The notes beneath the pieces were generated by a model, which saw only the letters and a program-made list of their open reading frames with translations, ran no database searches and was not told the DNA's origin. From contig JAKOXM010000678.1 of NCBI GenBank assembly GCA_029781095.1, positions 1-53,757 of the forward strand: a DNA stretch of 53,757 bases. The letters run 5' to 3'. The stretch is from Bacteroidota bacterium (GTDB lineage: Bacteria; Bacteroidota; Bacteroidia; Chitinophagales; Saprospiraceae). A program made the position numbers and the translations under genes. Shown here piece after piece: positions 7,443 through 46,302 of the stretch (positions within the stretch are counted from its first letter, which is position 1; each line of letters starts with the position of its first letter).

Positions 7443-8900
7443 CTAAAAATCTTCAAAATAAGTCCGTGCATTGCGGGCCACGTTGCGTTGCATGGTGGTG
7501 GCGTCGTGGTAATTGTCGCCTTCCGTTTGTGTTCCCGCAGCATGTGCATACAGCGTGATCTCCCAGCGCGGATTGTTGATCTCCCCGCGCGCCGTAGAAT
7601 GCAGCATGATAAAATCTTCGCCGGCGAGGCTCGGGTTGTAGAACAGGAATTTCACGTTTTTCTGGTTGGTTTTCGGGAAATTGTAGTACACCCATATCTC
7701 GTAAGGCGGCGCTCCCGGGTCATCTTCCACGTGAATAAAATCGTCCGGGCGGCCAAAACGAAGGAACGTACGGCCCCGGTCCGTTTCAAAACCATACCGG
7801 AATCCGCTTTTGAATTTTTCATGGACGGCTGCGGCCACCTGCATAAATTTCTGGTAGGCCTGCTCCGGGTTGTTGGCATCCTGCCGCACGAAGTAACGGA
7901 AGAGATAATACCGCATGGGCTTTAGTTCTTTTCCCTGCAGGATATTTTTCAGCGTTTCGGATTCCTCGCCGACTGCCATGGCGGAAATGGCGCGGAGTCC
8001 GTACCGGAGGGTTTCTTCATCGAGATTTTCCACGAACTGTCTGGACAACACCTCGTCTGTGATCTCGTTTTCCGTCACATGCAGAAAGGGATTGCTTCGT
8101 TGAAACGTAAGTGAACGGGTGTTCAGCAATTCATTGGCGGCATTGCGCAATTCCACGGTGAGGGAATAGTTGCCGCTTTCGAGCTTGCTGATGTCCATTT
8201 GCACCAGTATAGCATCGATGGAAGAAGGTTTTTTCCGTTGATTTCCTACTGAAACAAGGGTTTTAATACCGTTGCCTTTTTCCTGCTCGATAAAATAACG
8301 AACCGAGTAGTCGGCATCGACGATGCTGTGATTCGAATGGTATATCTCGGCGTAAAACGCAAGCAATACGGCGCTCCGGTCGTAAAAATTGAAAGGCAGC
8401 GGCTCCAGGTAATATCCGTTTTTGGTGAAGGGATTGTCCGAATTGTCGGCCCTGAACCCGCGCAGCAATTGCACTTCCGACAAATGAATATTCTCATCGA
8501 TGGCAACAAGGAGCGGCGCAGCGTAGCTGTCCTTGTTTTCCGCGTCGTTGATGTCCTGAAAGCTGATCTCAAGCGTGTATTCACCGTTCGGGATGGATAA
8601 TCGCTTGACATCGAGCAAGTTTTGCGGTATGTCTACGAGCGGGCTGTTGAGTACATATTTTTCAAAATTCACCACCGTTTCACCCTTTTTTATCAAAATC
8701 AGGGTTTCCACCCCGGCCTGCAAGTGCGTACTGTCTGCCCGTTTGAAGGTAACGGACGCCGCCGCGATTTCTATGTTGATTTCGATATATGGTTTCTCCG
8801 GAGTGGCATACACGGCGTAAGAGACGCCTGTATCAAGGGCCCGGCCGGCAAAATGCAGGAGCAATCCGGCGATGCAGAAAAAAAGCGATTTTGTTTTCAT
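7443..8900 (-). CDS. GWxTD domain-containing secreted protein
   Basis: Signal peptide; C-terminal GFETDRGRTFLRFGRPDDFI...PYEIWVYYNFP typical of the GWxTD family. Confidence 0.8.
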   Translation of the reverse strand: MKTKSLFFCIAGLLLHFAGRALDTGVSYAVYATPEKPYIEINIEIAAASVTFKRADSTHLQAGVETLILIKKGETVVNFEKYVLNSPLVDIPQNLLDVKRLSIPNGEYTLEISFQDINDAENKDSYAAPLLVAIDENIHLSEVQLLRGFRADNSDNPFTKNGYYLEPLPFNFYDRSAVLLAFYAEIYHSNHSIVDADYSVRYFIEQEKGNGIKTLVSVGNQRKKPSSIDAILVQMDISKLESGNYSLTVELRNAANELLNTRSLTFQRSNPFLHVTENEITDEVLSRQFVENLDEETLRYGLRAISAMAVGEESETLKNILQGKELKPMRYYLFRYFVRQDANNPEQAYQKFMQVAAAVHEKFKSGFRYGFETDRGRTFLRFGRPDDFIHVEDDPGAPPYEIWVYYNFPKTNQKNVKFLFYNPSLAGEDFIMLHSTARGEINNPRWEITLYAHAAGTQTEGDNYHDATTMQRNVARNARTYFEDF

Positions 8901-9062: not shown

Positions 9063-11267
9063 TCAGCTCTTGAAAATCAGGTAAGACAACATGACCAGCA
9101 AAATGATCAGCAAATAGGTGATCCATATCTTGTTGCTGAACCGGAACAGTCGCCGTTTTTCCCCGGTGCCGGCGGCCGCTCCGGCACCTGAGCGTTGCCG
9201 GGCAATGTACGTCACGTAAAGAAAACAGAAGAAATTGATGCCTAACGTCAGCATGAGAAAAATGTAGGCCAGGTTCATCGAATCCGTTGCGGGCGATATC
9301 TGCACCAGGTTAATGGAGTAGGCCACCGTGGCGAGGAACGAGGTGATGATCAGTTCGCCGACTTCTTCAAAACTGGCTTTGTGGAAGAACAGCATGAAAA
9401 TAGGCAGCGCGCTGAACATGAGGAAGGGCAGTACGATCAGGATAATGGCTCCCCAGGGCTGCCGGCTCACTTTGAGGTGAATATTCAGGGTTTTGTATTT
9501 CTCGAGGAACTGCGCCCTGTCGTCAGGATCGAATGTTACTTTATTGGGCGAACCCAGCGAATTGGTGATCTGGTTGTCGAGGGTAACGTAGTATTCCTCT
9601 GAATCCCAGTCGTTCAGCCTGAAATCGTTGATCTTGTCTTTTACCTGAAGACGACTGTAATCGAAGCTGGTCTTGATCTTGTCGCTGGGCGCAAGGGCCG
9701 AGACGGGGATCAGGAGCTCGTAGCGATCGAACGGGAAATTAAACGAATTGAAGTTGCCCAGAAACTTTCCACTGATGCGGTGTATGCTGACCACGTAGTT
9801 GCTATCGTGTTTCTGGGCGATGGCGTACCGGTTGCCCTCTTCGGAACTGATGTTGGGAAAATCGATGTAGCCCTCCTTGTCGATGTGGTTTGAATCCACG
9901 ATGACCCAGTACAAAAGGTTGCAGTCGAACGTATTTTTACGCACGTCGATGTCGCTGATGCCGATGATGTCGATGCCTACGCGCAGATCGGGGATGGGCT
10001 CTCCCTCGCTGTTGATCTGGATCGGACAACTGCGTGTATTGCCACTTCTTATTTCCTCGAAATTCGGCTCGGGTTTCTGGATAAGCAGGGTGTCGAATAC
10101 ATATAACTCATTGTATATGGATGTTTTACGCCCTTTCAGTTTGTCGTGGAAATAACCGGCTATCTCGTTGCGGCTGATGGAGTCTGCCCGGAGCGCGGAC
10201 TCAAAGATATTCATGGTATCGAAGCAGCGGCGCAAGGTCAGATCCGCCTGGCGCTCCCGTTCCCTTTCGATCTCCCGTTGCTTGGCGGTCATTTTGCGGC
10301 CTTTCCTTTCTTCTTTGATGAAAGGATTCGGATAAATGGATTTGATGATTTTTTTATCGTGGTAAACTTCCAGCGGCAGCAGGTTTTCACTGTTCACCAG
10401 CCGGATGAAAGTATGCCCTTTTTCCTTTGTAATTTTTTCCAGTTCCTTGTCCGTCAGGCTGGTCTGGATACCGACGAAAGTCTTGGGCGGCAGCGGCTCG
10501 TGTTCCAGAAAGCGCATAATGGAATCACCGTAGCCGGCATGGGTATTGAGCAGAATGACGTCTTCCTGCGGCCGGTTGAGCATTTTGCGCAACATTCGTT
10601 TCATCGAAGCGACCGAATCGGAGGGCACTTCCCGGTTTCTGATATAACTGCTCTGCCAGAGGCAAACCGAGTCGTAACTGAGATGATTCTTGATGATGCT
10701 CTCCACAAAACGTTCGTGCAGGAGGTAGTCGCATTCGGTGACAAACCCGATATGCCTGGCTTTCAGCACGGTGGCCATGAACTGGACGAGGTAGTTCGGA
10801 TTGGGATCGCTGGGGTTGAGAAATACGGCATTATCGCCAAAATCGAGTTTGTTCTGGTCGGCAGTTTGTGAAATGACAGGCATGCCCTGCCGGATCAGCG
10901 GTGCAGCATACCGGATATATTTGCCCCAGGTATTATCCACAACGAGCACGATGTTCGTATCGGCCATCATTTCCTGGTAACGCGGTACGATCAGGGAATC
11001 CTTGTAATCGCACTGAAATGTCTTGAGGCGATACTCTACAGGGTAAGGTTTGGGGTCTTCATGCGCATTGATACGGTCAAGATAGGTCTGCAATGCCACG
11101 ATGTGCAGCGAATCCGAGTAATTGTTGGCGCTGTCCCGGGCAACGTCCGTGTAATTGAAACCCAGGTAGGCAACATATTTTACCGGACGCAGCCCCAATA
11201 CCGACTTTTTACAGGCGGAATATGAGACGAGTGTCAGAACAGCAAAGGCGAAGATGATTTTTTGCAT
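9063..11267 (-). CDS. PBP type I domain fused to pentameric ligand-gated ion channel (prokaryotic Cys-loop-receptor superfamily)
   Basis: Signal/lipoprotein-like N-terminus; PBP-I-like VPRYQEMMADTNIVLVVDNTWGKYIRYAAPLIRQGMPVIS; pLGIC beta-sandwich with FNFPFDRYELLIPV; 4 TMs at the C-terminus spaced M1-M2-M3, loop, M4. Confidence 0.8.
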   Translation of the reverse strand: MQKIIFAFAVLTLVSYSACKKSVLGLRPVKYVAYLGFNYTDVARDSANNYSDSLHIVALQTYLDRINAHEDPKPYPVEYRLKTFQCDYKDSLIVPRYQEMMADTNIVLVVDNTWGKYIRYAAPLIRQGMPVISQTADQNKLDFGDNAVFLNPSDPNPNYLVQFMATVLKARHIGFVTECDYLLHERFVESIIKNHLSYDSVCLWQSSYIRNREVPSDSVASMKRMLRKMLNRPQEDVILLNTHAGYGDSIMRFLEHEPLPPKTFVGIQTSLTDKELEKITKEKGHTFIRLVNSENLLPLEVYHDKKIIKSIYPNPFIKEERKGRKMTAKQREIERERERQADLTLRRCFDTMNIFESALRADSISRNEIAGYFHDKLKGRKTSIYNELYVFDTLLIQKPEPNFEEIRSGNTRSCPIQINSEGEPIPDLRVGIDIIGISDIDVRKNTFDCNLLYWVIVDSNHIDKEGYIDFPNISSEEGNRYAIAQKHDSNYVVSIHRISGKFLGNFNSFNFPFDRYELLIPVSALAPSDKIKTSFDYSRLQVKDKINDFRLNDWDSEEYYVTLDNQITNSLGSPNKVTFDPDDRAQFLEKYKTLNIHLKVSRQPWGAIILIVLPFLMFSALPIFMLFFHKASFEEVGELIITSFLATVAYSINLVQISPATDSMNLAYIFLMLTLGINFFCFLYVTYIARQRSGAGAAAGTGEKRRLFRFSNKIWITYLLIILLVMLSYLIFKS

Positions 11268-31693: not shown

Positions 31694-33151
31694 ATGACCA
31701 ATATCATCTCCGGAACTTACATCGGGCAATCGAAAAAATACAACTACACTCTGAATATGTTGCTGAAACGCATTTGTTGGGTTTTCACGCTCTTTTTTGC
31801 TGCCTCGCTTTCGCTCTCCGCGGCTCCCACAATCGAAGAAGGTAAAACCCTTTTCACTGCCAACTGCGCCTCCTGTCATAATAAAAACATGAAGGACAAC
31901 CTCACCGGCCCCGCTTTGGGCGGAGTTGAGGATCGTTGGTCAGGTTTTCCGCGCAAGGACCTGTATGCCTGGGTGCGCAACTCCCAGTCGCTCATTGCAA
32001 CCGGACATCCGCGCGCCAACGAACTGTGGGCCAAGTGGAAACCGACGATGATGAATAACTTCCCGGGACTGACGGACGATCAGATCGAGAGTGTTCTTCT
32101 CTATGTGAACGATCAATACGTCAACGCTGGCAAAAAGGTGGTACCGCCTGGTGGCGACATTCCTACGGAAAAGGAGAGCGAAACACCCTGGATGTTCATC
32201 GGTCTTACGATCATTCTCGGGTTGCTGGCCTTTGCGCTCATGCGCATTATCGACAACCTCGGCAACATCACCCGCGTGCAGGCCGGCGATGCCCCCGTTC
32301 GCAAGAGCGTGGCCCAGACGCTGACAAGCAAAGGCGCGATCGCCTTTATGGTTTTTGCCGTGACCCTGATCTTTGGCTATAAAACGGTGGATAATGCCAC
32401 CAGAATGGGCCGTGAACAGAATTATCAGCCGGATCAGCCCATCGCGTTCAGCCACAAACTGCACGCCGGCACGAATAAAATCGATTGCCAGTATTGCCAC
32501 GATGCCGCCCGCCGCTCCAAACAGTCGTTCATTCCAGGCACCAATACCTGCATGAATTGCCACGCGGCGGTAAAAAAAGGCAGCAAAACGGGTACTTCCG
32601 AAATTACAAAGATCTTCGCCTCTATCGGTTTCGACCCGCTCCAGAATAAATACATTCCCGATTACGAAAACTGGAGCGACAAGCAGATCGAAGACCTCTA
32701 TAAAAAATGGATCGGCCAGGAATACATGTCCGCCAACACCCTGACGGCACTGGACGACAATGGCCGCATGACCGTTGAAACACAATGGGAAGGCGTCGTC
32801 AAGGCGCTCAAAAACGACCTGAACGGCAAAATACAGGGGCCGATCGAGTGGACCCGTATCCACAACCTCCCCGACCACGTTTATTTCAATCACTCCCAGC
32901 ACGTTACCGTCGGACAGATCGCTTGTCAGAAATGCCACGGCCCCGTGCAGGAAATGGACGTTGTGTATCAGTACTCCACCCTCGGAATGGGCTGGTGCAT
33001 CAATTGCCACCGCGAAACGGAGGTGAAATTCAAAGACAACGCTTACTACGATCAATACGAGCGCTACCATAAGGAACTGGCCTCCGGCAAACGCGAAAAG
33101 GTGACGGTGGAAGACATTGGCGGCCTCGAATGCCAGAAATGTCACTATTAA
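31694..33151 (+). CDS. actA: Alternative complex III subunit A: multiheme c-type cytochrome with an extra N-terminal monoheme domain (true start may be ~31757)
   Basis: Six CXXCH motifs: CASCH, CQYCH, CMNCH, CQKCH, CINCH, CQKCH; followed by ActB-F. Confidence 0.9.
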   Translation: MTNIISGTYIGQSKKYNYTLNMLLKRICWVFTLFFAASLSLSAAPTIEEGKTLFTANCASCHNKNMKDNLTGPALGGVEDRWSGFPRKDLYAWVRNSQSLIATGHPRANELWAKWKPTMMNNFPGLTDDQIESVLLYVNDQYVNAGKKVVPPGGDIPTEKESETPWMFIGLTIILGLLAFALMRIIDNLGNITRVQAGDAPVRKSVAQTLTSKGAIAFMVFAVTLIFGYKTVDNATRMGREQNYQPDQPIAFSHKLHAGTNKIDCQYCHDAARRSKQSFIPGTNTCMNCHAAVKKGSKTGTSEITKIFASIGFDPLQNKYIPDYENWSDKQIEDLYKKWIGQEYMSANTLTALDDNGRMTVETQWEGVVKALKNDLNGKIQGPIEWTRIHNLPDHVYFNHSQHVTVGQIACQKCHGPVQEMDVVYQYSTLGMGWCINCHRETEVKFKDNAYYDQYERYHKELASGKREKVTVEDIGGLECQKCHY

Positions 33152-33210
33152 ATTTAATGTGCTGATGTGCTTTTGATAATGGGCTATTTCAAGCCATTAC
33201 AATAATCTGA

Positions 33211-33320
33211 GCAGCCCATTAGCCCATTAATCACATTAGCAAATTAGCACATTAACCCCATTAGCCCATTAGCAAATTAACCCCATTAGCAAATCAGCAC
33301 ATTAGCAAATTAGCACATTG
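33211..33320 (+). repeat. Degenerate short-word tandem repeat between actA and actB
   Basis: Repeating cattagcaaattagcacattaaccccattagcccattag words. Confidence 0.85.
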
Positions 33321-36300
33321 AAAAATATGCACCACGATAACGGTATTTGGGTCAGCACGGAAGATTTGATGCGGGAAGACGCCTTCCTGCAATCGGCTGA
33401 AAAAGAATTTTCCATTGAAAACATCGACCAAACCGACGGCAAATGGGAAACCAACCGCCGTGACTTCCTGAAACTGCTCGGTTTCGGCCTGGGCGCTGCC
33501 ACACTTGCGGCCTCCTGCGAGATTCCAGTCAAAAAAGCCATTCCGTACGTTACCAAACCGGACGAAATCGTTCCGGGCGTGGCCAACTATTTCGCGTCTT
33601 CCTTTGTCAACGGCGGCGATTATTGCCCCGTTCTGGTGAAGACCCGTGAAGGCCGCCCGATCAAAATTGAAGGCAATACGCTCAGCAGCATCACCAAAGG
33701 CGGCACCAGCGCACGGGCGCAGGCATCCGTTCTCAGCCTCTACGACAACCGCCGCATTCAGCACGCGGGTCTTGTAAAGGACGGCAATGTGACGAAGCAG
33801 GAGTGGAATGCGCTCGACCGGGAAGTAAAAGCCAAACTGGCTGCCGGCGGCAATATCAGGTTGATCACCAATACCATTATCAGCCCGACGGCAAAAAAGG
33901 CGCTGACGGAATTTACCACCAAATACCCGGGCAGCCGCGCCGTGACCTACGATCCCGTATCGCATGCAGCCCTGCTCGCCGCCAACCAGCAATGCTTCGG
34001 CGCGCGGGTGATCCCCAACTATAAATTCGGCGATGCCGAAGTCATTGTCTCTTTCGGCGCCGATTTCCTCGGCACCTGGATCAGCCCGGTCGAATATGCA
34101 CGCGCCTATGCTGAAAACCGCAAAATCCGCGGTGTAAAAGGCGCTAAAATGTCGCGCCACTACCAGGTAGAAAGCCATATGTCGCTTACAGGCTCGAATG
34201 CCGACAACCGCATTCTGGTAAAACCGAGCGAACAGGGCGCAGCCATCGTTGCCTTGTACAACGAACTGACCGGTAACAGCGGCGGTCCCAAACTCAGCAA
34301 CGAAAAGGCCGCGGCAGCCATCAAAAAAATGGCGCACGACCTGGCCGAACACAAGGGCAAATCGCTCGTCGTATCCGGCTCCAACAACGTGATGGAGCAG
34401 GTTTACGTCAATATGATCAACGACCGGCTCGGAAATATCAACGCCACGGTCGATTTCAGCGCCGTATCCAACCAGCGCCAGGGCGACGAGCGCGACATGA
34501 TGCGCCTGATCGAAGAAATGAACGCAGGGCAGGTGGCTGTTGTGATCGTTTGGGGAGCCAACCCGGCTTACGAACTTCCCAATGCCGCCAAATTCAAGGA
34601 GGCATTCGCCAAAGTTGGCACCCGGATATCGTTTTCCGGTGTCATGGACGAGACCACAGCCCTTTGCAGCCATTCAGCCCCGACCCACCACCAGCTCGAA
34701 TCCTGGGGCGACGCAGAACCCAAAGCCGGCTACTTCAGCCTGATCCAGCCAACCATTGCACCACTTTTCGCCACGCGCCAGGCAGAACACTCCCTGCTCG
34801 AATGGGCGGACAGCCCCAACCTCGACCGGCAGGCCGAACAACCATACTACGAATACCTGAAGGCAGCCTGGGCCGCTGAAATTTTCGGACGCCAGACCAA
34901 ATATGCCACACAACAGGCATTCTGGGATATGAGCCTCCACGACGGCGTGGTGGAACTGCCTCCCGTAGCCTTGACGGCTGTCATGAACAACGTGTCGCTG
35001 AACCCGGATGCCGTAACCAAACCCTCCGGCAGCGAACTCGAGATATCTTTTTACGAAACGGTCAACGTCGGAGGCGGCCAATACGCGCACAACCCCTGGT
35101 TGCAGGAAATGCCGGATCCGGTAACCCGCACCGTGTGGGGCAACTACCTCCACATTCCGGTGGAGTGGGATGGCGTGAATCATATCAACGGCTGGAAGGG
35201 CCTCAACGACGGCGACAACGTTGAAGTTGAAATAAACGGCCAGAAACTGACCTGCACGGTCGTTCGTACTTTCGGCCAGGCGCCCGGCACGGTAGCCATC
35301 GCACTCGGCGGCGGACGCGAATCGGGCGGTTGCGGCGTCGGCTTCGGCGTAAACGTAAATCCATGGCTTCCGGTAGACGGTGGTCTTATCCAGTACTTTG
35401 CCAAAGACGTAAAAGTGTCCGACAAAGTGGGCGTCGACAAAAACTTCGCCTGCGTTCAGTTCCACCATACCATGGGTGTGCAGGCGCTGGGCAAAGAAGA
35501 AGGCAAAGAGATCAATGTAGACGAAAAATCACTGGGCTGGAAAGGTTTTCAGGGCGCTCTTACCGATCGTTCGATCATTTTCCATGCACACGTGGACGAA
35601 CTTCCCAAGTTTGCCTCGGAGATGGAAGAGTTTCATGCCGAGAGCAAACACCTCAATGAGCAAACCCTTTACCCCGACCGCAGCGATTATTTCGGAACGG
35701 GTATGAAATGGGGCATGTACGTCGATATGAATGCCTGTGTCGGCTGCGGCGCATGCCAGGTTGCCTGCGTCAGCGAGAACAACGTTCCGGTGGTCGGCAA
35801 AAACGAGGTGCATCGCCACCATGAAATGACCTGGTTGCGCATCGATCGCTATTTCTACGGCGACTTCGAAAACCCGAAAGTTGTGTATCAGCCGATGATG
35901 TGCCAGCACTGCGACAATGCGCCCTGTGAAAACGTGTGTCCGGTTGCCGCTACCAACCACTCCATGGAAGGCATCAACCAAATGGCATACAACCGCTGCA
36001 TCGGCACGCGCTACTGCGCCAACAACTGTCCTTTCAAGGTGCGTCGCTTCAACTGGCTCGACTACACCACAGCAGACGTATGGCCGGCCAACGAAGAGCG
36101 CGTATTCCACGCGGAAGGCGACGAATTGCCGTTCTATGCCGATAACCTTGTTCGTATGGTGCTCAATCCGGATGTAACGATCCGTTCGAGGGGCGTTATT
36201 GAAAAATGTTCATTCTGCATTCAGCGCATACAGGAGGGTAAACTGACCGCCAAACGCGAAAACCGCGCGATCATGGACAATGATATCCGGTCGGCCTGCC

Positions 36301-36482
36301 AGACGGCCTGCCCGACAGGCGCCATCATATTCGGCAACCTCAACAACCCGGACAGCGAAGTAAGCAAACTCACCAAAGCCGCAGGCGCTATTGCCTATAA
36401 GGTACTGGAAGAGATCAACGTTCGCCCCGCAGTGAACTATTCAGCAAAGATTACCAACAGCAACGAAGAACTTTATTCTTAA
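33318..36482 (+). CDS. actB: Alternative complex III subunit B, TAT-variant molybdopterin-like/Fe-S protein
   Basis: NRRDFLKLLGFGLGAATLAASC; C-terminal CVGCGACQVAC, CQHCDNAPCENVCPVAA, CIGTRYCANNCPFKVRRFNW, CSFCIQRIQ ferredoxin motifs. Confidence 0.95.
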   Translation: MKNMHHDNGIWVSTEDLMREDAFLQSAEKEFSIENIDQTDGKWETNRRDFLKLLGFGLGAATLAASCEIPVKKAIPYVTKPDEIVPGVANYFASSFVNGGDYCPVLVKTREGRPIKIEGNTLSSITKGGTSARAQASVLSLYDNRRIQHAGLVKDGNVTKQEWNALDREVKAKLAAGGNIRLITNTIISPTAKKALTEFTTKYPGSRAVTYDPVSHAALLAANQQCFGARVIPNYKFGDAEVIVSFGADFLGTWISPVEYARAYAENRKIRGVKGAKMSRHYQVESHMSLTGSNADNRILVKPSEQGAAIVALYNELTGNSGGPKLSNEKAAAAIKKMAHDLAEHKGKSLVVSGSNNVMEQVYVNMINDRLGNINATVDFSAVSNQRQGDERDMMRLIEEMNAGQVAVVIVWGANPAYELPNAAKFKEAFAKVGTRISFSGVMDETTALCSHSAPTHHQLESWGDAEPKAGYFSLIQPTIAPLFATRQAEHSLLEWADSPNLDRQAEQPYYEYLKAAWAAEIFGRQTKYATQQAFWDMSLHDGVVELPPVALTAVMNNVSLNPDAVTKPSGSELEISFYETVNVGGGQYAHNPWLQEMPDPVTRTVWGNYLHIPVEWDGVNHINGWKGLNDGDNVEVEINGQKLTCTVVRTFGQAPGTVAIALGGGRESGGCGVGFGVNVNPWLPVDGGLIQYFAKDVKVSDKVGVDKNFACVQFHHTMGVQALGKEEGKEINVDEKSLGWKGFQGALTDRSIIFHAHVDELPKFASEMEEFHAESKHLNEQTLYPDRSDYFGTGMKWGMYVDMNACVGCGACQVACVSENNVPVVGKNEVHRHHEMTWLRIDRYFYGDFENPKVVYQPMMCQHCDNAPCENVCPVAATNHSMEGINQMAYNRCIGTRYCANNCPFKVRRFNWLDYTTADVWPANEERVFHAEGDELPFYADNLVRMVLNPDVTIRSRGVIEKCSFCIQRIQEGKLTAKRENRAIMDNDIRSACQTACPTGAIIFGNLNNPDSEVSKLTKAAGAIAYKVLEEINVRPAVNYSAKITNSNEELYS

Positions 36483-36483
36483 A

Positions 36484-36565
36484 AGGGGTTTGAGGTTTCA
36501 GGATTTCAAGGTTTCAGGGTTATCCGCCCAAAAACCTGAAACCCTGGAACCCTGAAACCATCTAA
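36484..36565. repeat. Word-repeat hairpin spacer between actB and actC
   Basis: ggtttcaggatttcaaggtttcaggg ... cctgaaaccctggaaccctgaaacc. Confidence 0.75.
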
Positions 36566-36580
36566 CCATAATAAAAAAGT

Positions 36581-38005
36581 ATGTCTCAAGCAGTTGCGCC
36601 GGTTCGGCACGTTTTGATTGAAGGCAATAAATCCTACCACAATATCACGGAGGATTTGTGCACCCCTACTGAAAAAGCGCCTTCACGGGAGTGGATAATC
36701 GCTTTCTCGATCGCTTCGGCTTTCCTCGGGCTGTACATATTCTCCATTATTTGGACGGTATGGAAAGGCATCGGTTCCTGGAACCTCAACCGTACGATCA
36801 ACTGGGGTTGGGATATTACCAACTTCGTGTGGTGGATCGGTATTGGTCACGCAGGGACGCTGATTTCGGCCATTTTGTTGCTGTTCCGCCAGCGCTGGCG
36901 GACGGGGGTGAACCGCGCTGCGGAAGCCATGACCATCTTCGCCGTGATCTGCGCCGGCCAGTTCCCCGTTTTCCACATGGGGCGGGTGTGGCTCGCATTC
37001 TTCATCTTCCCGTTCCCGAATACCCGCGGACCGCTTTGGGTGAACTTTAACTCGCCGCTGTTGTGGGACGTATTTGCCATATCGACGTATTTCTCGGTTT
37101 CGCTCCTGTTCTGGTACACCGGTTTGGTACCTGACCTTGCTACCGTCCGCGACCGCGCGTCGGGTTTCCGCAGAAAGATGTACGAGATTTTTTCTTTCGG
37201 GTGGACCGGCAGCGCCAAACACTGGCAGCGCCATGAGGCTCTTTCGCTGGTATTGGCCGGCATTTCAACGCCGCTGGTACTTTCGGTACATACCATCGTA
37301 TCCTTCGACTTTGCCACGTCGGTTGTTCCGGGCTGGCATACCACCATTTTCCCGCCTTATTTTGTTGCGGGCGCTATCTTCTCGGGATTTGCCATGGTGC
37401 AGACGCTGATGGTGATCACCCGTAAAGTGCTGAAACTGGAAGAATATATTACGCTGAACCACATTGAATCCATGAACAAGGTTATCGTGCTTACGGGTAC
37501 GATCGTCGGTGTGGCGTACCTCACCGAGTTGTTCATCTCCTGGTATTCGGGTTATATCTACGAGCAATTTGCTTTCTACAACCGCGTATTCGGCATTTAC
37601 TGGTGGGCATATTTCGGTATGATGTTCTGCAACGTGGTCAGTCCGCAGCTCTTCTGGTCGCGGAAGATCCGCCGCAGCATCTGGTGGACGTTCTTCCTTT
37701 CCATCGTGGTGAATATCGGAATGTGGTTTGAGCGTTTTGTGATTATCGCAACGACGCTGGCCCGCGATTTTTTACCGTCTTCCTGGAGTTACTACAGCCC
37801 GAGCTGGGTAGAGATATGCATTTTCTCCGGCACCATCGGTCTGTTCTTCGTTTGTTACCTGATCTTCACCCGCGTTGCGCCGGTGGTCGCCATTGCCGAA
37901 ATCAAAGCCATTTTGAAAGTGGCAGGCGATCAGTACATCGGACCGAATGCCCAGAAACAGGCGCATGGCCACGCCAAAAGCGAACCCGCGAAAAAAGATC
38001 ATTGA
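36581..38005 (+). CDS. actC: Alternative complex III subunit C (NrfD/PsrC family)
   Basis: Ten-TM NrfD-like; WNLNRTINWGWDITNFVWWIGIGHAGTLISAILLLFRQRWRT. Confidence 0.95.
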   Translation: MSQAVAPVRHVLIEGNKSYHNITEDLCTPTEKAPSREWIIAFSIASAFLGLYIFSIIWTVWKGIGSWNLNRTINWGWDITNFVWWIGIGHAGTLISAILLLFRQRWRTGVNRAAEAMTIFAVICAGQFPVFHMGRVWLAFFIFPFPNTRGPLWVNFNSPLLWDVFAISTYFSVSLLFWYTGLVPDLATVRDRASGFRRKMYEIFSFGWTGSAKHWQRHEALSLVLAGISTPLVLSVHTIVSFDFATSVVPGWHTTIFPPYFVAGAIFSGFAMVQTLMVITRKVLKLEEYITLNHIESMNKVIVLTGTIVGVAYLTELFISWYSGYIYEQFAFYNRVFGIYWWAYFGMMFCNVVSPQLFWSRKIRRSIWWTFFLSIVVNIGMWFERFVIIATTLARDFLPSSWSYYSPSWVEICIFSGTIGLFFVCYLIFTRVAPVVAIAEIKAILKVAGDQYIGPNAQKQAHGHAKSEPAKKDH

Positions 38006-38052
38006 TACCCGACCCTGAACGCCCAACTTCAAACTTCAAACATTTTTTATAA

Positions 38053-38583
38053 ATGGCTGCTGAAAGTAAAAAAGTTCTTTACGGACTTTACAACGACGAA
38101 GAAGACCTGAAAGGCGCAATCAAAACTGCGAATGCGGCGCACCTGAATATCATGGACGTGTTTACGCCCTTCCCGGTTCACGGGCTGGACCCGATTCTCG
38201 GATTGAAAGAGAGCCGCCTGCACATCCTCGGCTTTATTTACGGGGCTGTGGGCGCAACCTTCGGATTTCTCGCCATGACCTGGATATTCACGAGCGACTG
38301 GCCGATCGTGTTTGGCGGCAAACCGTTCTGGTCGGTGCCGGCTTTCATCCCGATCACCTTCGAGATGACGGTATTGTTCTCCGCATGGGGTATGACCATT
38401 TCCTTCTACACCATCTGTGGTATGTGGCCGGGTGTGAAGGCGAAATCGCTCGATAATCGCATTACGGATGACAAATTCTGCATCGCTTTCGATGTAACCA
38501 GCGCACCGGACAGCGATGTGAAAAACCTTCAGGGCTTTTTTACCAATACCGGCGCTTCCGAAGTGAATGTAAAGGCAATGTAA
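38053..38583 (+). CDS. actD: Alternative complex III subunit D (DUF3341)
   Basis: LYGLYNDEEDLKGAIK, VFTPFPVHGLDPILGLKESRL. Confidence 0.95.
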   Translation: MAAESKKVLYGLYNDEEDLKGAIKTANAAHLNIMDVFTPFPVHGLDPILGLKESRLHILGFIYGAVGATFGFLAMTWIFTSDWPIVFGGKPFWSVPAFIPITFEMTVLFSAWGMTISFYTICGMWPGVKAKSLDNRITDDKFCIAFDVTSAPDSDVKNLQGFFTNTGASEVNVKAM

Positions 38584-38627
38584 CCCACTGATAACCAACA
38601 ACCAACAACGGACAACTAATAAAGAAT

Positions 38628-39440
38628 ATGAAATACGCAATTGGCGCGATTCTCGGCGTTGCATTTTTTGCCTGGGCGTTTTCGCTGTGCTCACCGGCCG
38701 GCAAGAACAAAACCGGGCATGAATACATGCCGGACATGTATCACCCTGTCGGTTATGAAGCCAACCAGTACAGTGCCTATTACTGGAATCACTGGGATGA
38801 TAAAAGCACCTTCACGAAGGCCCAACTATCCATGCCGCGCGGCAAGGTGAACGGAACGATTCCCCGCGGTTACACTGCCGCATATTATGGCCAGGATATC
38901 GGCTATGTACGTGGAAAAAATGCCGACAACGCCATCGCTGCCCCCGTAAACGGTGAAGCGCCGTTTTACTACGCGAATAATGAAGATGACCGTCTGCGCT
39001 GCGAGCAACAGATGACCGACAATCCCTATCCGATCACAAAGGAAGGGCTCGATCGCGCGAAAAACCTGTACACGATATATTGCGGCATTTGCCATGGCGA
39101 CAAAGCCGACGGACAGGGATGGCTTGTTACGATGCCTGATACGAAGTACCCCGCCCAGCCCAAAAACCTGATCGGCGACGACATGATCGCTGCCGGCAAC
39201 GGACGCTTTTATTTTGCCATGATGTACGGTAAAAACGTGATGGGCGGCTACTCGGACAAACTCTCGTTCGAAGAACGCTGGCAGGTGTTGCACTACATCC
39301 GTTCGCTGCAGGCCAAATCCAAGAACCTGGAATACAGCGAAACCGCCAATACCCTGAGCAACGTTGAAAAACCGGCCAAGGGCGTAGCCACTGGCCCCGC
39401 AAGGGCAGTTGTCGCACCGCCGCCGCCACCGTCAAAATAA
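38628..39440 (+). CDS. actE: Alternative complex III subunit E, monoheme cytochrome c
   Basis: MPDMYHPVGYEANQYSAYYWN; CGICHGDKADGQG heme motif. Confidence 0.93.
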   Translation: MKYAIGAILGVAFFAWAFSLCSPAGKNKTGHEYMPDMYHPVGYEANQYSAYYWNHWDDKSTFTKAQLSMPRGKVNGTIPRGYTAAYYGQDIGYVRGKNADNAIAAPVNGEAPFYYANNEDDRLRCEQQMTDNPYPITKEGLDRAKNLYTIYCGICHGDKADGQGWLVTMPDTKYPAQPKNLIGDDMIAAGNGRFYFAMMYGKNVMGGYSDKLSFEERWQVLHYIRSLQAKSKNLEYSETANTLSNVEKPAKGVATGPARAVVAPPPPPSK

Positions 39441-39524
39441 GAGATCGATTTTCCGTAAATAAACCATCCCGTTGAACCTGATCTATACAAAATAACTTTA
39501 TTGGGCTCTGCCCAAACCTGCGAT

Positions 39525-41123
39525 ATGAATCTGACCAAGACGCAATTTGTATTTGAAGGCAAAACCAAACGCGTGCTCATCGGCGGTATGGCACTGGGAG
39601 TGCTTTGCCTTGCTCTCTCCGCGCTCAACGATGACGAGTTTCACACGCGCTTCTGGACCAATTTCCTTCACAACTCGGTGTATTTCACCGCGGTGGCTTT
39701 TATGGCCGTGTTTTTCCTGTCGGCCCAGTTAACAGCATTTGCCGGCTGGCTGACCGTCATCAAACGCATTTGGGAAGGCATGGGACAGTTCATGCTGGTG
39801 GGGCTTGTTCTGATAGGCATTATTGTCATTGGCGTGTGGGGGCATCTCCATCACCTTTACCACTGGAACGATCCGAATCTGAACATCACCGATCCCGCAG
39901 GCCCGCACTATGATCGCATTCTGGCAGGCAAATCTGGTTTTCTGAACCCGGTGTTCTTTACGATCGCCAGCCTCGGCTTCCTCGGCATCTGGTATTTCTG
40001 GGCGTATAAAATGCGTCAAAACTCCATTGCGCAGGATACCATGGAAACTCCGTCCCTGGATTATTACAAAAAAGAACGCAAGTGGGCGGCGTCATTCCTG
40101 CCGATCGGCGGCTTCCTCAGCGCCGTATTTTTCTGGCAGGTGCTGATGTCGGTCGACCCCCATTGGTACAGCACCATGTTTGCATGGTATTCCACGGCTT
40201 CGGCCTGGCTGGGCGCGCTTGCCCTGACCGTCATGATCATAATTTACCTCAAATCGCAAGGGTATCTCGAATACGTCACCTACGATCACCTGCACGATGT
40301 TGGCAAATACCTTTTCGGTATCAGCGTGTTCTGGACATACCTGTGGTTTGACCAGTTTATGTTGATCTGGTATGCCAATAACGGTGAGGAAACGATCTAC
40401 TTCAAGGAACGCATGGAAAATTACCCTGTGCTTTTCTGGGGCAACCTGCTCATGAACTTCGTGGCGCCGTTCCTTATTCTGATGCGCAACGATACCAAGC
40501 GCAAATTCGGAACCATGTTCTTTGTGGCCATCATCGTTTTCTTTGGCCATTGGTGGGATTATTTCTACATGATCAAGCCGGGCGCACGGATTGCGGCTCA
40601 TGAGGCCAGGGAAATGGCCGAAGGCGTTCAACATAAAGTAAGTCTGAATACAACGAGCGAACTTCACACGCCCGGAAATATCCAAATCGCCTTGAGCAAG
40701 GCCGGAGGCGATCAGGCGCAGGAACCCGCAGCGGATAAACCGGCCGAAAAGCCTGCCGAAGGCCAGGCAGCGCCGCAGGAAAGCGCCAATGACGCTGAAC
40801 ATCCGGGAGCAGGCCAACAAAGCGCCACTGCCTCCGACGAACCGGCAACTCCGGAACACGGCGGGGAGACCCATGCCGAGGGCGGAGAAGAACATGGCGA
40901 AGGCGTGGCGGAAGGCCCAGGCAGTTTCAAGTTAGGCTATACCATACCCGGATTGGAAGAAATCGGAATTATGCTTGGGTTCCTGAGCCTGTTTCTGTTC
41001 TTCGTTTTCACCCAGCTCGAGCGCGCGTCGCTCGTGCCGCTGAAAGATCCGTACCTCGAAGAAAGCCTCCACCACGAAACGGGCGCCAATATTGAAAGCG
41101 AAGGCGGCGGCGATCACCACTGA
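39525..41123 (+). CDS. actF: Alternative complex III subunit F (quinol:cytochrome c oxidoreductase, quinone-binding subunit 2)
   Basis: Multi-TM; MSVDPHWYSTMFAWYSTASAWLG; operon position. Confidence 0.92.
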   Translation: MNLTKTQFVFEGKTKRVLIGGMALGVLCLALSALNDDEFHTRFWTNFLHNSVYFTAVAFMAVFFLSAQLTAFAGWLTVIKRIWEGMGQFMLVGLVLIGIIVIGVWGHLHHLYHWNDPNLNITDPAGPHYDRILAGKSGFLNPVFFTIASLGFLGIWYFWAYKMRQNSIAQDTMETPSLDYYKKERKWAASFLPIGGFLSAVFFWQVLMSVDPHWYSTMFAWYSTASAWLGALALTVMIIIYLKSQGYLEYVTYDHLHDVGKYLFGISVFWTYLWFDQFMLIWYANNGEETIYFKERMENYPVLFWGNLLMNFVAPFLILMRNDTKRKFGTMFFVAIIVFFGHWWDYFYMIKPGARIAAHEAREMAEGVQHKVSLNTTSELHTPGNIQIALSKAGGDQAQEPAADKPAEKPAEGQAAPQESANDAEHPGAGQQSATASDEPATPEHGGETHAEGGEEHGEGVAEGPGSFKLGYTIPGLEEIGIMLGFLSLFLFFVFTQLERASLVPLKDPYLEESLHHETGANIESEGGGDHH

Positions 41124-41206
41124 TTTATACTCATTCTATTCAAGCCTCAGTATCCGCAAAACCACCGAACAAACTTTTTACCTTTGGGTTAAAGCAATAA
41201 AATTCA

Positions 41207-41890
41207 ATGACAGCGCTAATCATAATACTCTGCGTCATCCTGATTTCCATCGTTTTGGTGCAAATCGGGAAAGTTACCGAGCTCACCGCCCAGATCAAGG
41301 GGGAGAGTGAAGCAATGCGCGACACCAGCAAATGGAATGGCTGGCTGTCCCTCGCATTCATGGTCGTTTTTCTGGGAGGTGTGTGTATTTCTGCCTACTA
41401 TTATAAAAATGAAATGATGGGCTACGGCCCCCATACTTCGGCATCGGCACATGGCAGCACGCTGGACGATTTGTTCCACATTACACTGCTGTTCACAGGG
41501 GTCGTGTTCGTATTATGCCATATAGCATTGTTCTGGTTTGCCTATAAATATCGCTGGCAAGAAGGACGCAAGGCGCAATTTATCGCCCATGATAACCGTC
41601 TCGAACTGATCTGGACAGCCATCCCCGCCGTCGTGATGACCATCCTCGTGGTACGCGGCCTGAATGCCTGGAATACGGTTATGGCCGACGTGAAGCCTGA
41701 TGAAGATTTTATCGAAATCGAGGCCACGGGGCAACAGTTTAACTGGATCATCCGCTACCCCGGACCGGACGGCAAACTGGGTACGCGCAACTACAAACTT
41801 ACGACAGCCAACAACCAGCTGGGCATGGACTTTACGGATCCCAAAACCTGGGATGATGTGATTCCCGGCCAGGAACTTACCTCCCCGTAG
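41207..41890 (+). CDS. coxB: Cytochrome c oxidase subunit II, N-terminal part (frame terminated by an apparent 1-nt deletion near 41878)
   Basis: Two TMs, IWTAIPAVVMTILVVRGLNAW; ends DPKTWDDVIPGQELTSP* where homologues continue as ..LHLPVGK. Confidence 0.88.
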   Translation: MTALIIILCVILISIVLVQIGKVTELTAQIKGESEAMRDTSKWNGWLSLAFMVVFLGGVCISAYYYKNEMMGYGPHTSASAHGSTLDDLFHITLLFTGVVFVLCHIALFWFAYKYRWQEGRKAQFIAHDNRLELIWTAIPAVVMTILVVRGLNAWNTVMADVKPDEDFIEIEATGQQFNWIIRYPGPDGKLGTRNYKLTTANNQLGMDFTDPKTWDDVIPGQELTSP

Positions 41891-41898
41891 GCAAAAAA

Positions 41899-42717
41899 GT
41901 GCGTGTTCGCATAACGGCTAAAGACGTGCTCCACAACTTCTTTCTCCCGCACTTTCGTGTGAAAATGGATGCCGTGCCGGGTATGCCGACCTATTTCATT
42001 TTTACGCCGATAAAAACAACCGCCGATTATCGTAACGAATTGCGCAAATACGAGGACTACAACGTGCCTGCCGACGAAGCAGATCCAACAGGACCCAAGC
42101 GCTGGGAAAAATTCGAATACGAACTGGCATGTGCAGAACTCTGCGGGAAGGGCCACTACTCCATGAAGCGCATCCTGCGCGTGGTGCCCCAGGCTGAATT
42201 TGATGAGTGGTACAAAAAACAGGAATCTTTTTACCTGACCCAGGTTCGCGGAAAAGAAGATGATCCCAACAAGGACAAGGTTCTGGATATAGAAGTCCGT
42301 CAGCGCGCGCAGGAATTCAGCGACAACGTAAAAAAAGCCGTTGAATCCTCCAATGCAACAGATAAAACATTAACACTCAATCATATCAATTTTGAGACGG
42401 GCTCGTCAACGCTTACCTCGAACAGCCGTTACGAACTGGACAACCTGGTAACAGCCCTGACTGCATACCCCGGTCTGGTGATTGAAATAGCAGGCCATAC
42501 CGATAATACCGGCGATCCGGCAGCAAACCTTTCGCTCTCTGCGGCACGTGCGGCTGCAGTGGCAAAGTACCTGACGGACAGGGGCATTTCGGAAAGCAGG
42601 CTGCGGACGAGAGGTTATGGCGAAACCAAACCGCTGGCGCCAAACGATACGGAAGAAAACCGTGCGAAAAACCGCCGCACGGAATTCACGATCCTGAACC
42701 AGACCACTGCTTCTTAA
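41899..42717 (+). CDS. coxB: Cytochrome c oxidase subunit II, C-terminal CuA part fused to OmpA C-terminal domain
   Basis: VRVRITAKDVLHNFFLPHFRVKMDAVPG; CuA motif CAELCGKGHYSM; then LNHINFETGSSTLTSNS...IEIAGHTDNTGD...RLRTRGYGETKP...NRRTEF. Confidence 0.88.
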   Translation: MRVRITAKDVLHNFFLPHFRVKMDAVPGMPTYFIFTPIKTTADYRNELRKYEDYNVPADEADPTGPKRWEKFEYELACAELCGKGHYSMKRILRVVPQAEFDEWYKKQESFYLTQVRGKEDDPNKDKVLDIEVRQRAQEFSDNVKKAVESSNATDKTLTLNHINFETGSSTLTSNSRYELDNLVTALTAYPGLVIEIAGHTDNTGDPAANLSLSAARAAAVAKYLTDRGISESRLRTRGYGETKPLAPNDTEENRAKNRRTEFTILNQTTAS

Positions 42718-42784
42718 AGTATTACAGACACCGCGAACCCAACGAAAGTCTCATTATACAAATCGTACAAAACTCCTGGCTATT

Positions 42785-44638
42785 ATGGCTCATGTAGTTA
42801 CCGCCGCTGAAACTCTGGAAGAAAAACTCACGCAAGAGTTGGGTTATGATGATCATTTCCATGAGCATCACCATGGCGACAAGTTTCAGTCGAATTTTCT
42901 AACGACCTACATTTTCAGCACCGATCACAAAATGATCGGCCGCCAATTCCTCATCACGGGGATATTTTGGGCATTCGTGGGTGCTGCCATGTCCATCGTT
43001 TTCCGCCTGCAGCTCGGCTTCCCCGAAGCGGATATGGCATGGCTGAGACCCATACTTGGAAAATGGATACAGGTAAACGATGCCGGCATCGGCAAACTCG
43101 ATCCGGAGTTTTACTACTCCCTTGTGACAATGCACGGCACGATTCTCGTGTTTTTCGTGCTGACGGCCGGTCTGAGCGGTACGTTTGCCAACCTGCTTAT
43201 CCCCGTGCAAATCGGCGCGCGTGATATGGCATCTCCCTTGCTGAACGCATTTTCCTACTGGTTCTTCTTCCTCGCCGGTGTGGTGATGTTCCTGTCGCTG
43301 TTCCTCAGCACCGGGCCATTTTCGGGGGGATGGACGGCTTATCCGCCTTTAAGCGCATTGCCACAGGCATCCGACGGCTCAAAAGCGGGGATGACGATGT
43401 GGATAGTGGGTATGGCGCTCTTTGTCGTGTCGTCCTTGCTGGGGGGCATCAACTATATCACGACGATCCTTAACATGCGCACCAAGGGCATGAATATGTG
43501 GCGCATGCCGCTCACCATCTGGGCTATTTTGGTCACGGCTATTTTGGGTGTGTTGTCATTCCCGGTATTGCTGTCGGGCGTGCTTCTTCTTATGTTCGAC
43601 CGCAGCCTCGGCACTTCGTTCTATCTGAGCGAAATCGTCGTAGGCGGTCAGGTACTTGACCGGATAGGCGGCAGCCCGATCCTCTACCAGCACTTGTTCT
43701 GGTTCCTCGGTCACCCGGAGGTGTATATCATCATCCTGCCCTCCATGGGAATCGTATCGGAGGTGTTGTCGGTGCATGCCCGCAAGCCGATCTTCGGCTA
43801 TCGCGCCATGGTGTACTCCATTCTGGCCATCGGTTTCCTTTCATTTATCGTGTGGGCGCACCACATGTTTATGTCGGGCGTAAACCCCTTCATCAGTAAT
43901 TTCTTTGTGGTGTTCACGCTGATTATAGCCGTACCCTCGGCTATTAAGGTGTTCAACTGGATCTCAACGGTTTACGGATCAAACTTCCGCTTCAACTCGG
44001 CAAGCCTCTTTGCCGTTGGGTTTGTTTCCATGTTTATTTCCGGCGGTCTGACGGGTATATTCCTCGGCAACTCGGCGATCGATATCCAGATGCACGACAC
44101 TTACTTTGTGGTTGCGCACTTCCACATTGTGATGGGTGTTGCGGCGTTCTTTGGGATGTTTGCCGGTATTTACCACTGGTTTCCCAAGATGTTCAGCCGG
44201 ATGATGAACGAAACGCTCGGCAAAATTCACTTTTGGGGTACCCTTATCGGAGCATACGCCATTTTCTGGCCAATGCACTATACAGGTATGGCAGGTGTAC
44301 CGCGCCGCTACTACAGTCTCGAAAATTTCGATTCGTTCAAACACTTTGTTGACTTGAACAGATTTATCACTGTGGCTGCCATCGTGGTTTTCTTCCTGCA
44401 GGTATTGTTCATTATCAATTTCTTCTACTCCATTTTCAGCGGTCGCAAGATGACCAGCAAAAATCCGTGGGGATCGAACACGCTGGAATGGACGACACCT
44501 ATCAAACCGGGGCACGGCAACTGGCCGGGCAATATTCCTTCCGTACAACGCTGGCCGTATGATTATGGCAAAGACGGTACGGAGTTCATTCCGCAATACG
44601 TGCCTTTGAAAGAAGGAGAACACGATCACGGACACTAA
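42785..44638 (+). CDS. ctaD: Cytochrome c oxidase subunit I
   Basis: STDHKMIGRQFL, LFWFLGHPEVYIIILPSMGIVSEVL, VWAHHMFMSG, VAHFHIVMGVAAFFGMFAGIYHWFPKM. Confidence 0.97.
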   Translation: MAHVVTAAETLEEKLTQELGYDDHFHEHHHGDKFQSNFLTTYIFSTDHKMIGRQFLITGIFWAFVGAAMSIVFRLQLGFPEADMAWLRPILGKWIQVNDAGIGKLDPEFYYSLVTMHGTILVFFVLTAGLSGTFANLLIPVQIGARDMASPLLNAFSYWFFFLAGVVMFLSLFLSTGPFSGGWTAYPPLSALPQASDGSKAGMTMWIVGMALFVVSSLLGGINYITTILNMRTKGMNMWRMPLTIWAILVTAILGVLSFPVLLSGVLLLMFDRSLGTSFYLSEIVVGGQVLDRIGGSPILYQHLFWFLGHPEVYIIILPSMGIVSEVLSVHARKPIFGYRAMVYSILAIGFLSFIVWAHHMFMSGVNPFISNFFVVFTLIIAVPSAIKVFNWISTVYGSNFRFNSASLFAVGFVSMFISGGLTGIFLGNSAIDIQMHDTYFVVAHFHIVMGVAAFFGMFAGIYHWFPKMFSRMMNETLGKIHFWGTLIGAYAIFWPMHYTGMAGVPRRYYSLENFDSFKHFVDLNRFITVAAIVVFFLQVLFIINFFYSIFSGRKMTSKNPWGSNTLEWTTPIKPGHGNWPGNIPSVQRWPYDYGKDGTEFIPQYVPLKEGEHDHGH

Positions 44639-44653
44639 TCTGACTGAAAAGAG

Positions 44654-45559
44654 TTGATAATGGAGCGCAACCAGGCAAAGCAGGTAACAGTATTTGAAGG
44701 CTTGACACAATCGGTGACCGATTTCGGTTTGCTGGTAAAGTTCAAGCTGACATTGCTGGTTCTTTTTTCGGCGGTCATGTCCTATGCAATTGTATGCAAC
44801 GGAGATGTGGACTGGATGACGATGGGTTTGCTGGCATTCGGAGGCTTTATGGTAACGGGGGCTGCCAATGCACTCAACCAGGTACTCGAACGCGATTACG
44901 ATCTGTTGATGACGCGCACCGCCAACCGGCCCGTTGCCACCGGGCGGATGAGCGTTTCAAAAGCCGTGTTGTGGGCGGGTTTGATGGCGCTGGCAGGTAT
45001 TACGGTACTTTCCATGTTCAGCCCGCTTACGGGGTTTCTCGGCACCTTGTCGCTGATAAGTTATGCCTTCGTTTACACGCCCTTAAAGCGCTCCACGTCG
45101 CTGTCTGTGGTGGTGGGCGCCATACCGGGAGCATTACCGCTGATAATCGGTTGCGTGGTGCACGAAGGCGCTATCTCGCATACGGCGCTGATGTTGTTCA
45201 CGCTCCAGTTTTTGTGGCAGTTTCCACATTTCTGGGCGGTGGCGTGGCTGGCCGACGATGATTATAAACAAGCGGGTTTTTACCTGTTGCCCTCAAAAAA
45301 CGGAGAAAAAGATGCTACAACAGGCCTTTTATCCTTCGTTTTTTGCCTGCTTATGATCGGCAATGCCGCTTTGGGTTATTCGCTGGGCCTGACAGGAGGA
45401 CTTGCAACACTTGTGCTGGTTGCGTTGAACGCTTATTGGGCGTGGTATTGCTGGAAGTTGTATAAAGAGTGTTCGCGGGAAGCGGCGCGCAGGCAAATGT
45501 TTTTTTCTTTTCTGCATTTGCCGGTGTCGCTGATCGTACTGCTGATTGACAAAATGTAA
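44654..45559 (+). CDS. ctaB: Heme o synthase (protoheme IX farnesyltransferase)
   Basis: NALNQVLERDYDLLMTRTANRPVATGRMS, YAFVYTPLKRSTSLSVVVGAIPGALPLIIG. Confidence 0.95.
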   Translation: MIMERNQAKQVTVFEGLTQSVTDFGLLVKFKLTLLVLFSAVMSYAIVCNGDVDWMTMGLLAFGGFMVTGAANALNQVLERDYDLLMTRTANRPVATGRMSVSKAVLWAGLMALAGITVLSMFSPLTGFLGTLSLISYAFVYTPLKRSTSLSVVVGAIPGALPLIIGCVVHEGAISHTALMLFTLQFLWQFPHFWAVAWLADDDYKQAGFYLLPSKNGEKDATTGLLSFVFCLLMIGNAALGYSLGLTGGLATLVLVALNAYWAWYCWKLYKECSREAARRQMFFSFLHLPVSLIVLLIDKM

Positions 45560-45639
45560 AATTTGATCGCGGTTGATAATCGTTTATCCGGGTTGGGCAC
45601 CAACCTTGCAGACGGTTATCAAGCGTTTAAACCAAAAAT

Positions 45640-46221
45640 ATGGGTGCTGTTTCATCTCCCGTAATAAGCCGGAACAAGATCTATCCGCAAAAACTGGCGT
45701 TGTGGGTTGCCATCGGAAGCATCATAATGATGTTCGGCGCCTTTACAAGTGCCTATGTGGTACGGCGTTCGGCGGGCAACTGGCTGGAGTTTAAACTCCC
45801 GGATATTTTCTTTTTTAATACAGTGGTGATCGTTGCGAGCAGTTTTACGATTCACTATGCATACCACTCGTTTAAAAAAGGGAACGAAAAATTGTATAAA
45901 GCGCTGCTGGTCACAACCTTTGCGCTGGGTATTGCTTTTGTGATACTACAGTACAAGGGCTGGGAAGCCCTCAACGCAATAGGCGCGACTTTTACTGCAA
46001 ATCCCTCCAGTTCGTTCGTATACGTAATTTCGGGGATGCATGCAGCCCACGTACTGGGCGGTATCGCCGCATTGGTTGTTGCGCTGACGCATGCTTTTAT
46101 ATTGCCGTTCAAACCGACTGTGCGGCGCAGGCAGCGTTTCGAACTGGTGGTGCATTACTGGCATTTTGTTGATGTGCTTTGGGTATATCTCATCATGTTT
46201 TTCATGCTCCAATCGCAATAA
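45640..46221 (+). CDS. Cytochrome c oxidase subunit III-like protein (copy 1)
   Basis: SGMHAAHVLGGIAALVVALTHAF, RFELVVHYWHFVDVLWVYLIMFF. Confidence 0.92.
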   Translation: MGAVSSPVISRNKIYPQKLALWVAIGSIIMMFGAFTSAYVVRRSAGNWLEFKLPDIFFFNTVVIVASSFTIHYAYHSFKKGNEKLYKALLVTTFALGIAFVILQYKGWEALNAIGATFTANPSSSFVYVISGMHAAHVLGGIAALVVALTHAFILPFKPTVRRRQRFELVVHYWHFVDVLWVYLIMFFMLQSQ

Positions 46222-46302
46222 AATAAATCGTCCGCCTTTCCGCATCTGCCGGTCGGCGACCAAATAAGAATAAAGCCTAATATTAATAACTGACTGATTA
46301 TC

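Follow-up and report, generated by a model that had tools for sequence, protein, structure and literature searches.

Locus and gene architecture

We analysed a window of 53,757 nucleotides from a Saprospiraceae bacterium (contig JAKOXM010000678.1 of assembly GCA_029781095.1). One gene in this window, on the reverse strand, almost certainly joins a type I periplasmic binding protein (PBP) to a pentameric ligand-gated ion channel (pLGIC) of the Cys-loop type. A preliminary description of the same DNA had placed the reading frame at 9063 to 11267 on the reverse strand and had mapped amino acids 28-395 to 10083-11186; both agree with our coordinates, and the stretch GKFLGNFNSFNFPFDRYELLIPV quoted there is found in the protein. 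The frame has an ATG start and encodes 734 amino acids. The following features will be needed below ((-) marks the reverse strand; aa, amino acids).

9063..11267 (-): PBP-I and pLGIC fusion, complete gene, 734 aa (ATG start; orthologues)
11211..11267 (-): N-terminal signal, aa 1-18, and Cys19, a possible lipoprotein cleavage site (alignment)
10083..11186 (-): type I PBP fold, aa 28-395 (AlphaFold, Foldseek, Peripla_BP_6)
10923..10937 (-): DNTWG, aa 111-115, invariant cleft-side loop of lobe 1 (alignment and model)
10851..10862 (-): ADQN, aa 136-139, cleft-side loop; A136, D137 and N139 invariant (alignment and model)
10725..10739 (-): TECDY, aa 177-181, cleft-side loop of lobe 2; T177, E178, D180 and Y181 invariant (alignment and model)
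10539..10547 (-): NTH, aa 241-243, cleft-side loop of lobe 2; N241 and H243 invariant (alignment and model)
9990..10082 (-): linker between PBP and channel, aa 396-426; P401, F403, G409, Q417, N419 and G422 invariant
9468..9989 (-): pLGIC extracellular (periplasmic) domain, aa 427-600 (hhalign; low AlphaFold confidence)
9726..9737 (-): FPFD Pro-loop, aa 511-514, all four residues invariant (alignment)
9387..9458 (-): M1 helix, aa 604-627; pre-M1 R602 and M1 P614 invariant
9297..9371 (-): M2, putative pore helix, aa 633-657, with E634 at -2', E635 at -1', E638 at 2', T642 at 6' and L645 at 9'
9198..9287 (-): M3 helix, aa 661-690 (hydrophobicity and model)
9069..9128 (-): M4 helix, aa 714-733 (hydrophobicity and model)
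7443-8900 (-): gene of a GWxTD-domain protein, the immediate downstream neighbour of the fusion in about half of the loci

The combination of a type I PBP with a pLGIC, already proposed in the preliminary description, is upheld by profile comparison, Foldseek, signature residues and the model of the PBP. In a Pfam and NCBIfam scan of the window's protein no family exceeds its cut-off, both halves lying below the Pfam thresholds. The lack of a Neur_chan match had been named beforehand as an argument against a channel; taken literally, this lack is what we found, whereas the more sensitive profile and structure tests were positive. The genus also has stand-alone pLGIC paralogues, and most of those that we scanned likewise miss the cut-offs of Neur_chan_LBD and Neur_chan_memb despite strong matches to GLIC and ELIC. 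Such a cut-off serves annotation and does not define the channels biologically. We rejected a match to the permease UgpA (E 0.06, far under the cut-off), which covers transmembrane helices only, and we attribute matches to liprin and keratin to chance.

The N-terminal half

The AlphaFold model of amino acids 28-395 (pLDDT mostly 65-93) consists of strands alternating with helices, and together with Foldseek it gives two alpha/beta lobes with the topology of a type I PBP. The comparison with LIVBP/LivJ-type proteins that had been suggested for this region came out in favour of the PBP reading: the best match of the N-terminal half in the PDB is LIVBP (1z15, E 1.9e-11), with further matches to the ATD of GluA3, to GABA-B and to mGlu receptors. 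Normalised by target length, the TM-scores of the single-domain targets are about 0.5-0.66. A profile search of the PDB with the PBP half returned no PBP, the sequence being remote from known PBPs. In a scan that listed matches up to E 0.1, Peripla_BP_6 was found in 10 of 16 family members (best E 2.3e-6) and ANF_receptor in two of the 16, every entry with a score lying under the curated cut-off.

Conservation of the PBP domain differs between its two sides. If the C-terminal ends of the parallel strands are taken as the cleft side, with sides assigned from the secondary structure of the AlphaFold model, then 31% of the positions in cleft-side loops are invariant, versus 5% in the opposite loops and 14% in the domain as a whole. 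Conservation within the cleft is uneven: about half of the nine loops carry the signal, chiefly DNTWG, ADQN, ECDYLLH and THxGYG, and loops 204-208 and 292-298 contain no invariant position at all. Because most cleft-facing loops are strongly conserved, a real ligand is favoured, and we infer from this pattern that the cleft binds a small one. The canonical amino-acid-binding Ser/Thr of LIVBP-type PBPs are presumably not kept here, judging by an alignment made by eye against LivJ, which we treat as a lead only.

Preceding the PBP domain, Cys19 is invariant in 19 of 19 aligned orthologues although the residues flanking it vary. At -1 to Cys19, 17 of these sequences have Ala, Ser or Thr and the other two have Arg; position -3 is atypical in most. 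Judged by its sequence, a lipoprotein signal for signal peptidase II at Cys19 is possible.

The C-terminal half

That the C-terminal half is a pLGIC is borne out by profiles, Foldseek and motifs. The beta-sandwich proposed for its extracellular domain is a prediction, the model of this half being of low confidence. Compared by hhalign with the family of stand-alone pLGICs, the channel half scores 68.7 over 276 columns, with 60 column-shuffled controls reaching at most 29.7 and reversed controls 19-21. The extracellular region contributes most of this score: taken alone, it is matched to the stand-alone pLGICs with probability 92 and a score of 51.1 (reversed control 12.6). The transmembrane part alone scores 28.7, which is within the shuffled range; hence the case for this part lies in its register and motifs. 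The stand-alone pLGICs of the genus themselves match GLIC, ELIC and GABA-A chimaeras with E values between 1e-17 and 1e-19, and a profile built from these stand-alone members alone finds the fused genes in 21 genomes (E about 1e-5 to 1e-9). When a profile of 19 sequences was searched against the PDB with HMMER, only GLIC chains were among the best 60 matches (top E 0.005). For the C-terminal half AlphaFold yields a mean pLDDT of 46 and a pTM of 0.28, too low for the model to show the beta-sandwich with confidence. All 50 of the 50 Foldseek matches listed for this low-confidence model are pLGICs, with GLIC as the best (E 4e-5).

P512, F513, D514, W554, R602 and P614 align with GLIC and do not vary among 19 orthologues. 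The FPFD motif is present at amino acids 511-514 without a Cys-loop pair, as had been noticed earlier, and 33% of the positions of the extracellular domain are invariant, versus 14% in the PBP.

Hydrophobic segments at about 604-627, 633-657, 661-690 and 714-733 account for the four transmembrane helices previously claimed. A gap-free alignment of M2 with GLIC, with E634 at -2', E638 at 2', T642 at 6' and L645 at 9', was recovered by HMMER against the GLIC chains of the PDB, and the pre-M1 SRQ and the M1 proline also match GLIC as described, R602 and P614 being among the invariant residues. To these positions we add E635 at -1', which is absent from the preliminary description and invariant in 19 of 19 orthologues. 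M2 belongs to the most conserved parts of the protein, and its predicted pore-lining residues do not vary: Glu at -1' and 2', Thr at 6' and Leu at 9' are the same in all 19 orthologues; -2' is Glu or Asp in these sequences but Gly in L030. M2 would line the pore, and since it carries acidic rings at -1' and 2' (and mostly at -2' too) the channel is likely to be cation-selective, a claim whose backing comes from sequence. At the corresponding site the stand-alone paralogues carry D-x-R instead; the pore entrance of the fused type therefore differs from that of other pLGICs in these genomes.

Distribution and selection

Within one Saprospiraceae genus, as grouped in the genome collection that we searched, 24 of 42 genomes carry the fusion, at full length or in part. 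Those of their records that have a name are MAGs of Saprospiraceae or Bacteroidetes. Twenty-one copies are full-length or near-full-length and the remainder are in pieces on separate or short contigs; in every fully assembled copy the PBP-channel fusion is intact. The 20 other full-length or near-full-length orthologues are 46-76% identical where aligned. An assembly artefact or chimaera can be rejected, first because the fusion recurs in these 21 copies and second because the order of S15 peptidase, fusion and GWxTD protein is common to the window, L021, L030 and L045. Outside the genus, no full-length fused relative was found in samples of 248 genomes of the family, 399 of the order and 396 of the phylum, searched with a first-look filter that may miss distant members. 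Pfam Neur_chan_LBD is too insensitive to map the family across the phylum. A plasmid search for the fused protein gave no match.

Pairwise dN/dS is 0.03-0.09 over amino acids 28-690, and it is below 0.1 in the PBP, extracellular and transmembrane parts each, wherever dS could be estimated. Hence, the entire fusion has been kept by purifying selection.

The window's genome also carries two complete stand-alone pLGICs of different subfamilies (L098, G000:C116:5834-6763; L099, G000:C480:5901-6809) and a fragment of a third (L100, G000:C144:5206-5634). Fused or stand-alone, a pLGIC is present in 39 of the 42 genomes of the genus. Most pLGIC-bearing bacteria have just one (Tasneem et al. 2004, PMC549065). 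The two plasmid pLGICs that we examined in Azospirillum are both stand-alone. One of the stand-alone channels, on plasmid pAB510b of Azospirillum sp. B510 (L091:2279-4799), is annotated as hypothetical and lies 20 bases before a CheW-annotated gene and near an MCP, a neighbourhood that suits the earlier idea that such channels take part in chemotaxis.

Genomic neighbourhood

We considered the GWxTD gene as an operon partner of the fusion and rejected it. It is found in 41 of the 42 genomes of the genus, with or without the fusion, and the other neighbours are unrelated, so we read the linkage as inherited position. These other neighbours (PGM, MFS, GH30, glutaminase, AraC) differ between loci, and across the fusion loci compared there is no conserved neighbour that would hint at a ligand or pathway. 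The fusion gene looks like a solo unit. In three genomes a protein family of about 500 amino acids abuts the fusion upstream (L026:362-1876, L024:6420-7985, L048:8198-9700); a Pfam and NCBIfam scan of one member, that of L026, gave no match.

Elsewhere in the window, a respiratory cluster at 31694-47205 encodes a multihaem cytochrome c, an Fe-S protein and NrfD, followed by haem-copper oxidase subunits. It looks like an ordinary alternative complex III with cytochrome oxidase. Two long reading frames of 459 and 264 amino acids at 33294-35468 (-), antisense to the gene of the 1054-amino-acid Fe-S protein and without a family match, are most likely open by chance.

Discussion

We lean slightly towards the view that the fusion forms a pentameric cation channel, that its PBP binds a ligand and that closure of the PBP directly controls gating. 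Each protein would be one subunit of an inner-membrane pLGIC, with the type I PBP on the periplasmic side. Five copies probably assemble around their M2 helices into a cation-conducting pore, with the acidic rings where it opens to the cytoplasm. The ligand, small and probably polar, would bind in the conserved cleft of the PBP, and the conserved linker, about 30 residues long, would relay closure of the two lobes to the extracellular domain of the channel. From there the signal would travel via the Pro-loop and the pre-M1 arginine to open or close the pore. One could also argue, tentatively and with considerable doubt, for a lipid-anchored channel receptor, in which acylated Cys19 tethers the PBP head of each subunit to a membrane and the anchored clamshell pulls on the pore as the ligand closes it. 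Gating of this kind, by a PBP in a lipidated subunit, is not known to have been described for the pLGIC superfamily.

Alternatively, the pore could open when a ligand binds at the classical subunit interface of the extracellular domain, or in response to protons or another ion, with the PBP merely concentrating the ligand or tuning the channel allosterically. We regard this as unlikely, though it has to be taken seriously. It comes close to the suggestion of Tasneem et al. (2004, PMC549065) that a fused PBP-I domain senses the ligand or concentrates it, the nearest solved relative is the proton-gated GLIC, the additional N-terminal domain of DeCLIC is apparently a modulator, and conservation is higher in the extracellular domain than in the PBP. 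On the other hand, the strong conservation of most cleft loops suggests that the ligand of the PBP matters in itself. It is rather improbable that the PBP has become a docking, assembly or tethering module for a partner protein or the membrane instead of binding a small ligand: the N-terminus could be lipidated through Cys19, which is invariant and lies at the signal cleavage site, and the PBP domain is far in sequence from known PBPs, but the invariant residues cluster on the cleft side, away from the opposite loops. A sensor that descends from a pLGIC but has lost ion conduction would fit a class with no demonstrated function in the open-licence literature, but given the high conservation of M2 and its invariant predicted pore-lining residues we consider it very improbable.

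The fusion bears on a wider question: why do bacteria have channels of the nerve-receptor type, and what do the additional N-terminal domains of these channels do? About 20 intact versions of the protein are available from nature; their PBP is well predicted, the candidate site for its ligand is conserved and the pore resembles that of GLIC. Most genomes with the fusion also contain stand-alone pLGICs for comparison. The fusion gives a way of testing how added sensor domains control such channels. If it is true that the PBP switches the channel, then the protein would also be a ready biosensor scaffold.

Comparison with known systems

The best-scoring solved relative is GLIC of Gloeobacter, with which the fusion has in common the gap-free M2, Glu at -2', the Pro-loop, the conserved Trp, the pre-M1 SRQ and the M1 proline. 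GLIC differs in being without an N-terminal domain, and it has Ala and Thr at -1' and 2' where the fusion has Glu and Glu. In fold, amino acids 28-395 resemble LIVBP/LivJ-type PBPs, the best Foldseek match, with no significant sequence match in the PDB; those PBPs serve an ABC transporter, whereas the PBP of the fusion is covalently joined to a channel.

The preliminary description also drew a parallel to animal glutamate receptors. This parallel holds in that a PBP-I domain lies outside a ligand-gated channel and that Foldseek matches the ATD of GluA3. In iGluRs, the PBP-I ATD has mainly a modulatory role and agonist binding falls to a PBP-II domain; their tetrameric pore is unrelated to that of pLGICs. 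Agonist domain, stoichiometry and pore thus differ, and the likeness is a loose one of architecture only.

Like the fusion, DeCLIC of Desulfofustis is a pLGIC that carries a large N-terminal domain in the periplasm, but that domain consists of two lobes related to calcium-binding domains, not of a PBP. According to a paper of November 2025 (PMC12664993), no pLGIC other than DeCLIC has had such a domain even partially characterised. Jaiteh et al. (2016) left terminal domains out and noted that evidence for such associations came from genomes only. For PBP-fused pLGICs we found no functional study in the open-licence literature, in keeping with the earlier view that the class is functionally uncharacterised; subscription or unpublished work may exist.

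The early comparative genomics of a PBP-fused prokaryotic channel that the preliminary description mentioned is the work of Tasneem et al. (2004, PMC549065), who reported fusions of PBP-I and LGIC domains in the alphaproteobacteria Magnetospirillum and Bradyrhizobium. These ART-LGICs and the present family combine a signal peptide, a PBP-I domain, an LBD and a four-TM channel domain in one protein. Compared by description only, those fusions are alphaproteobacterial, whereas the present family belongs to the Saprospiraceae and has an invariant Cys at the signal cleavage site. The architecture was thus already reported in 2004, and the Saprospiraceae family is a new lineage of it.
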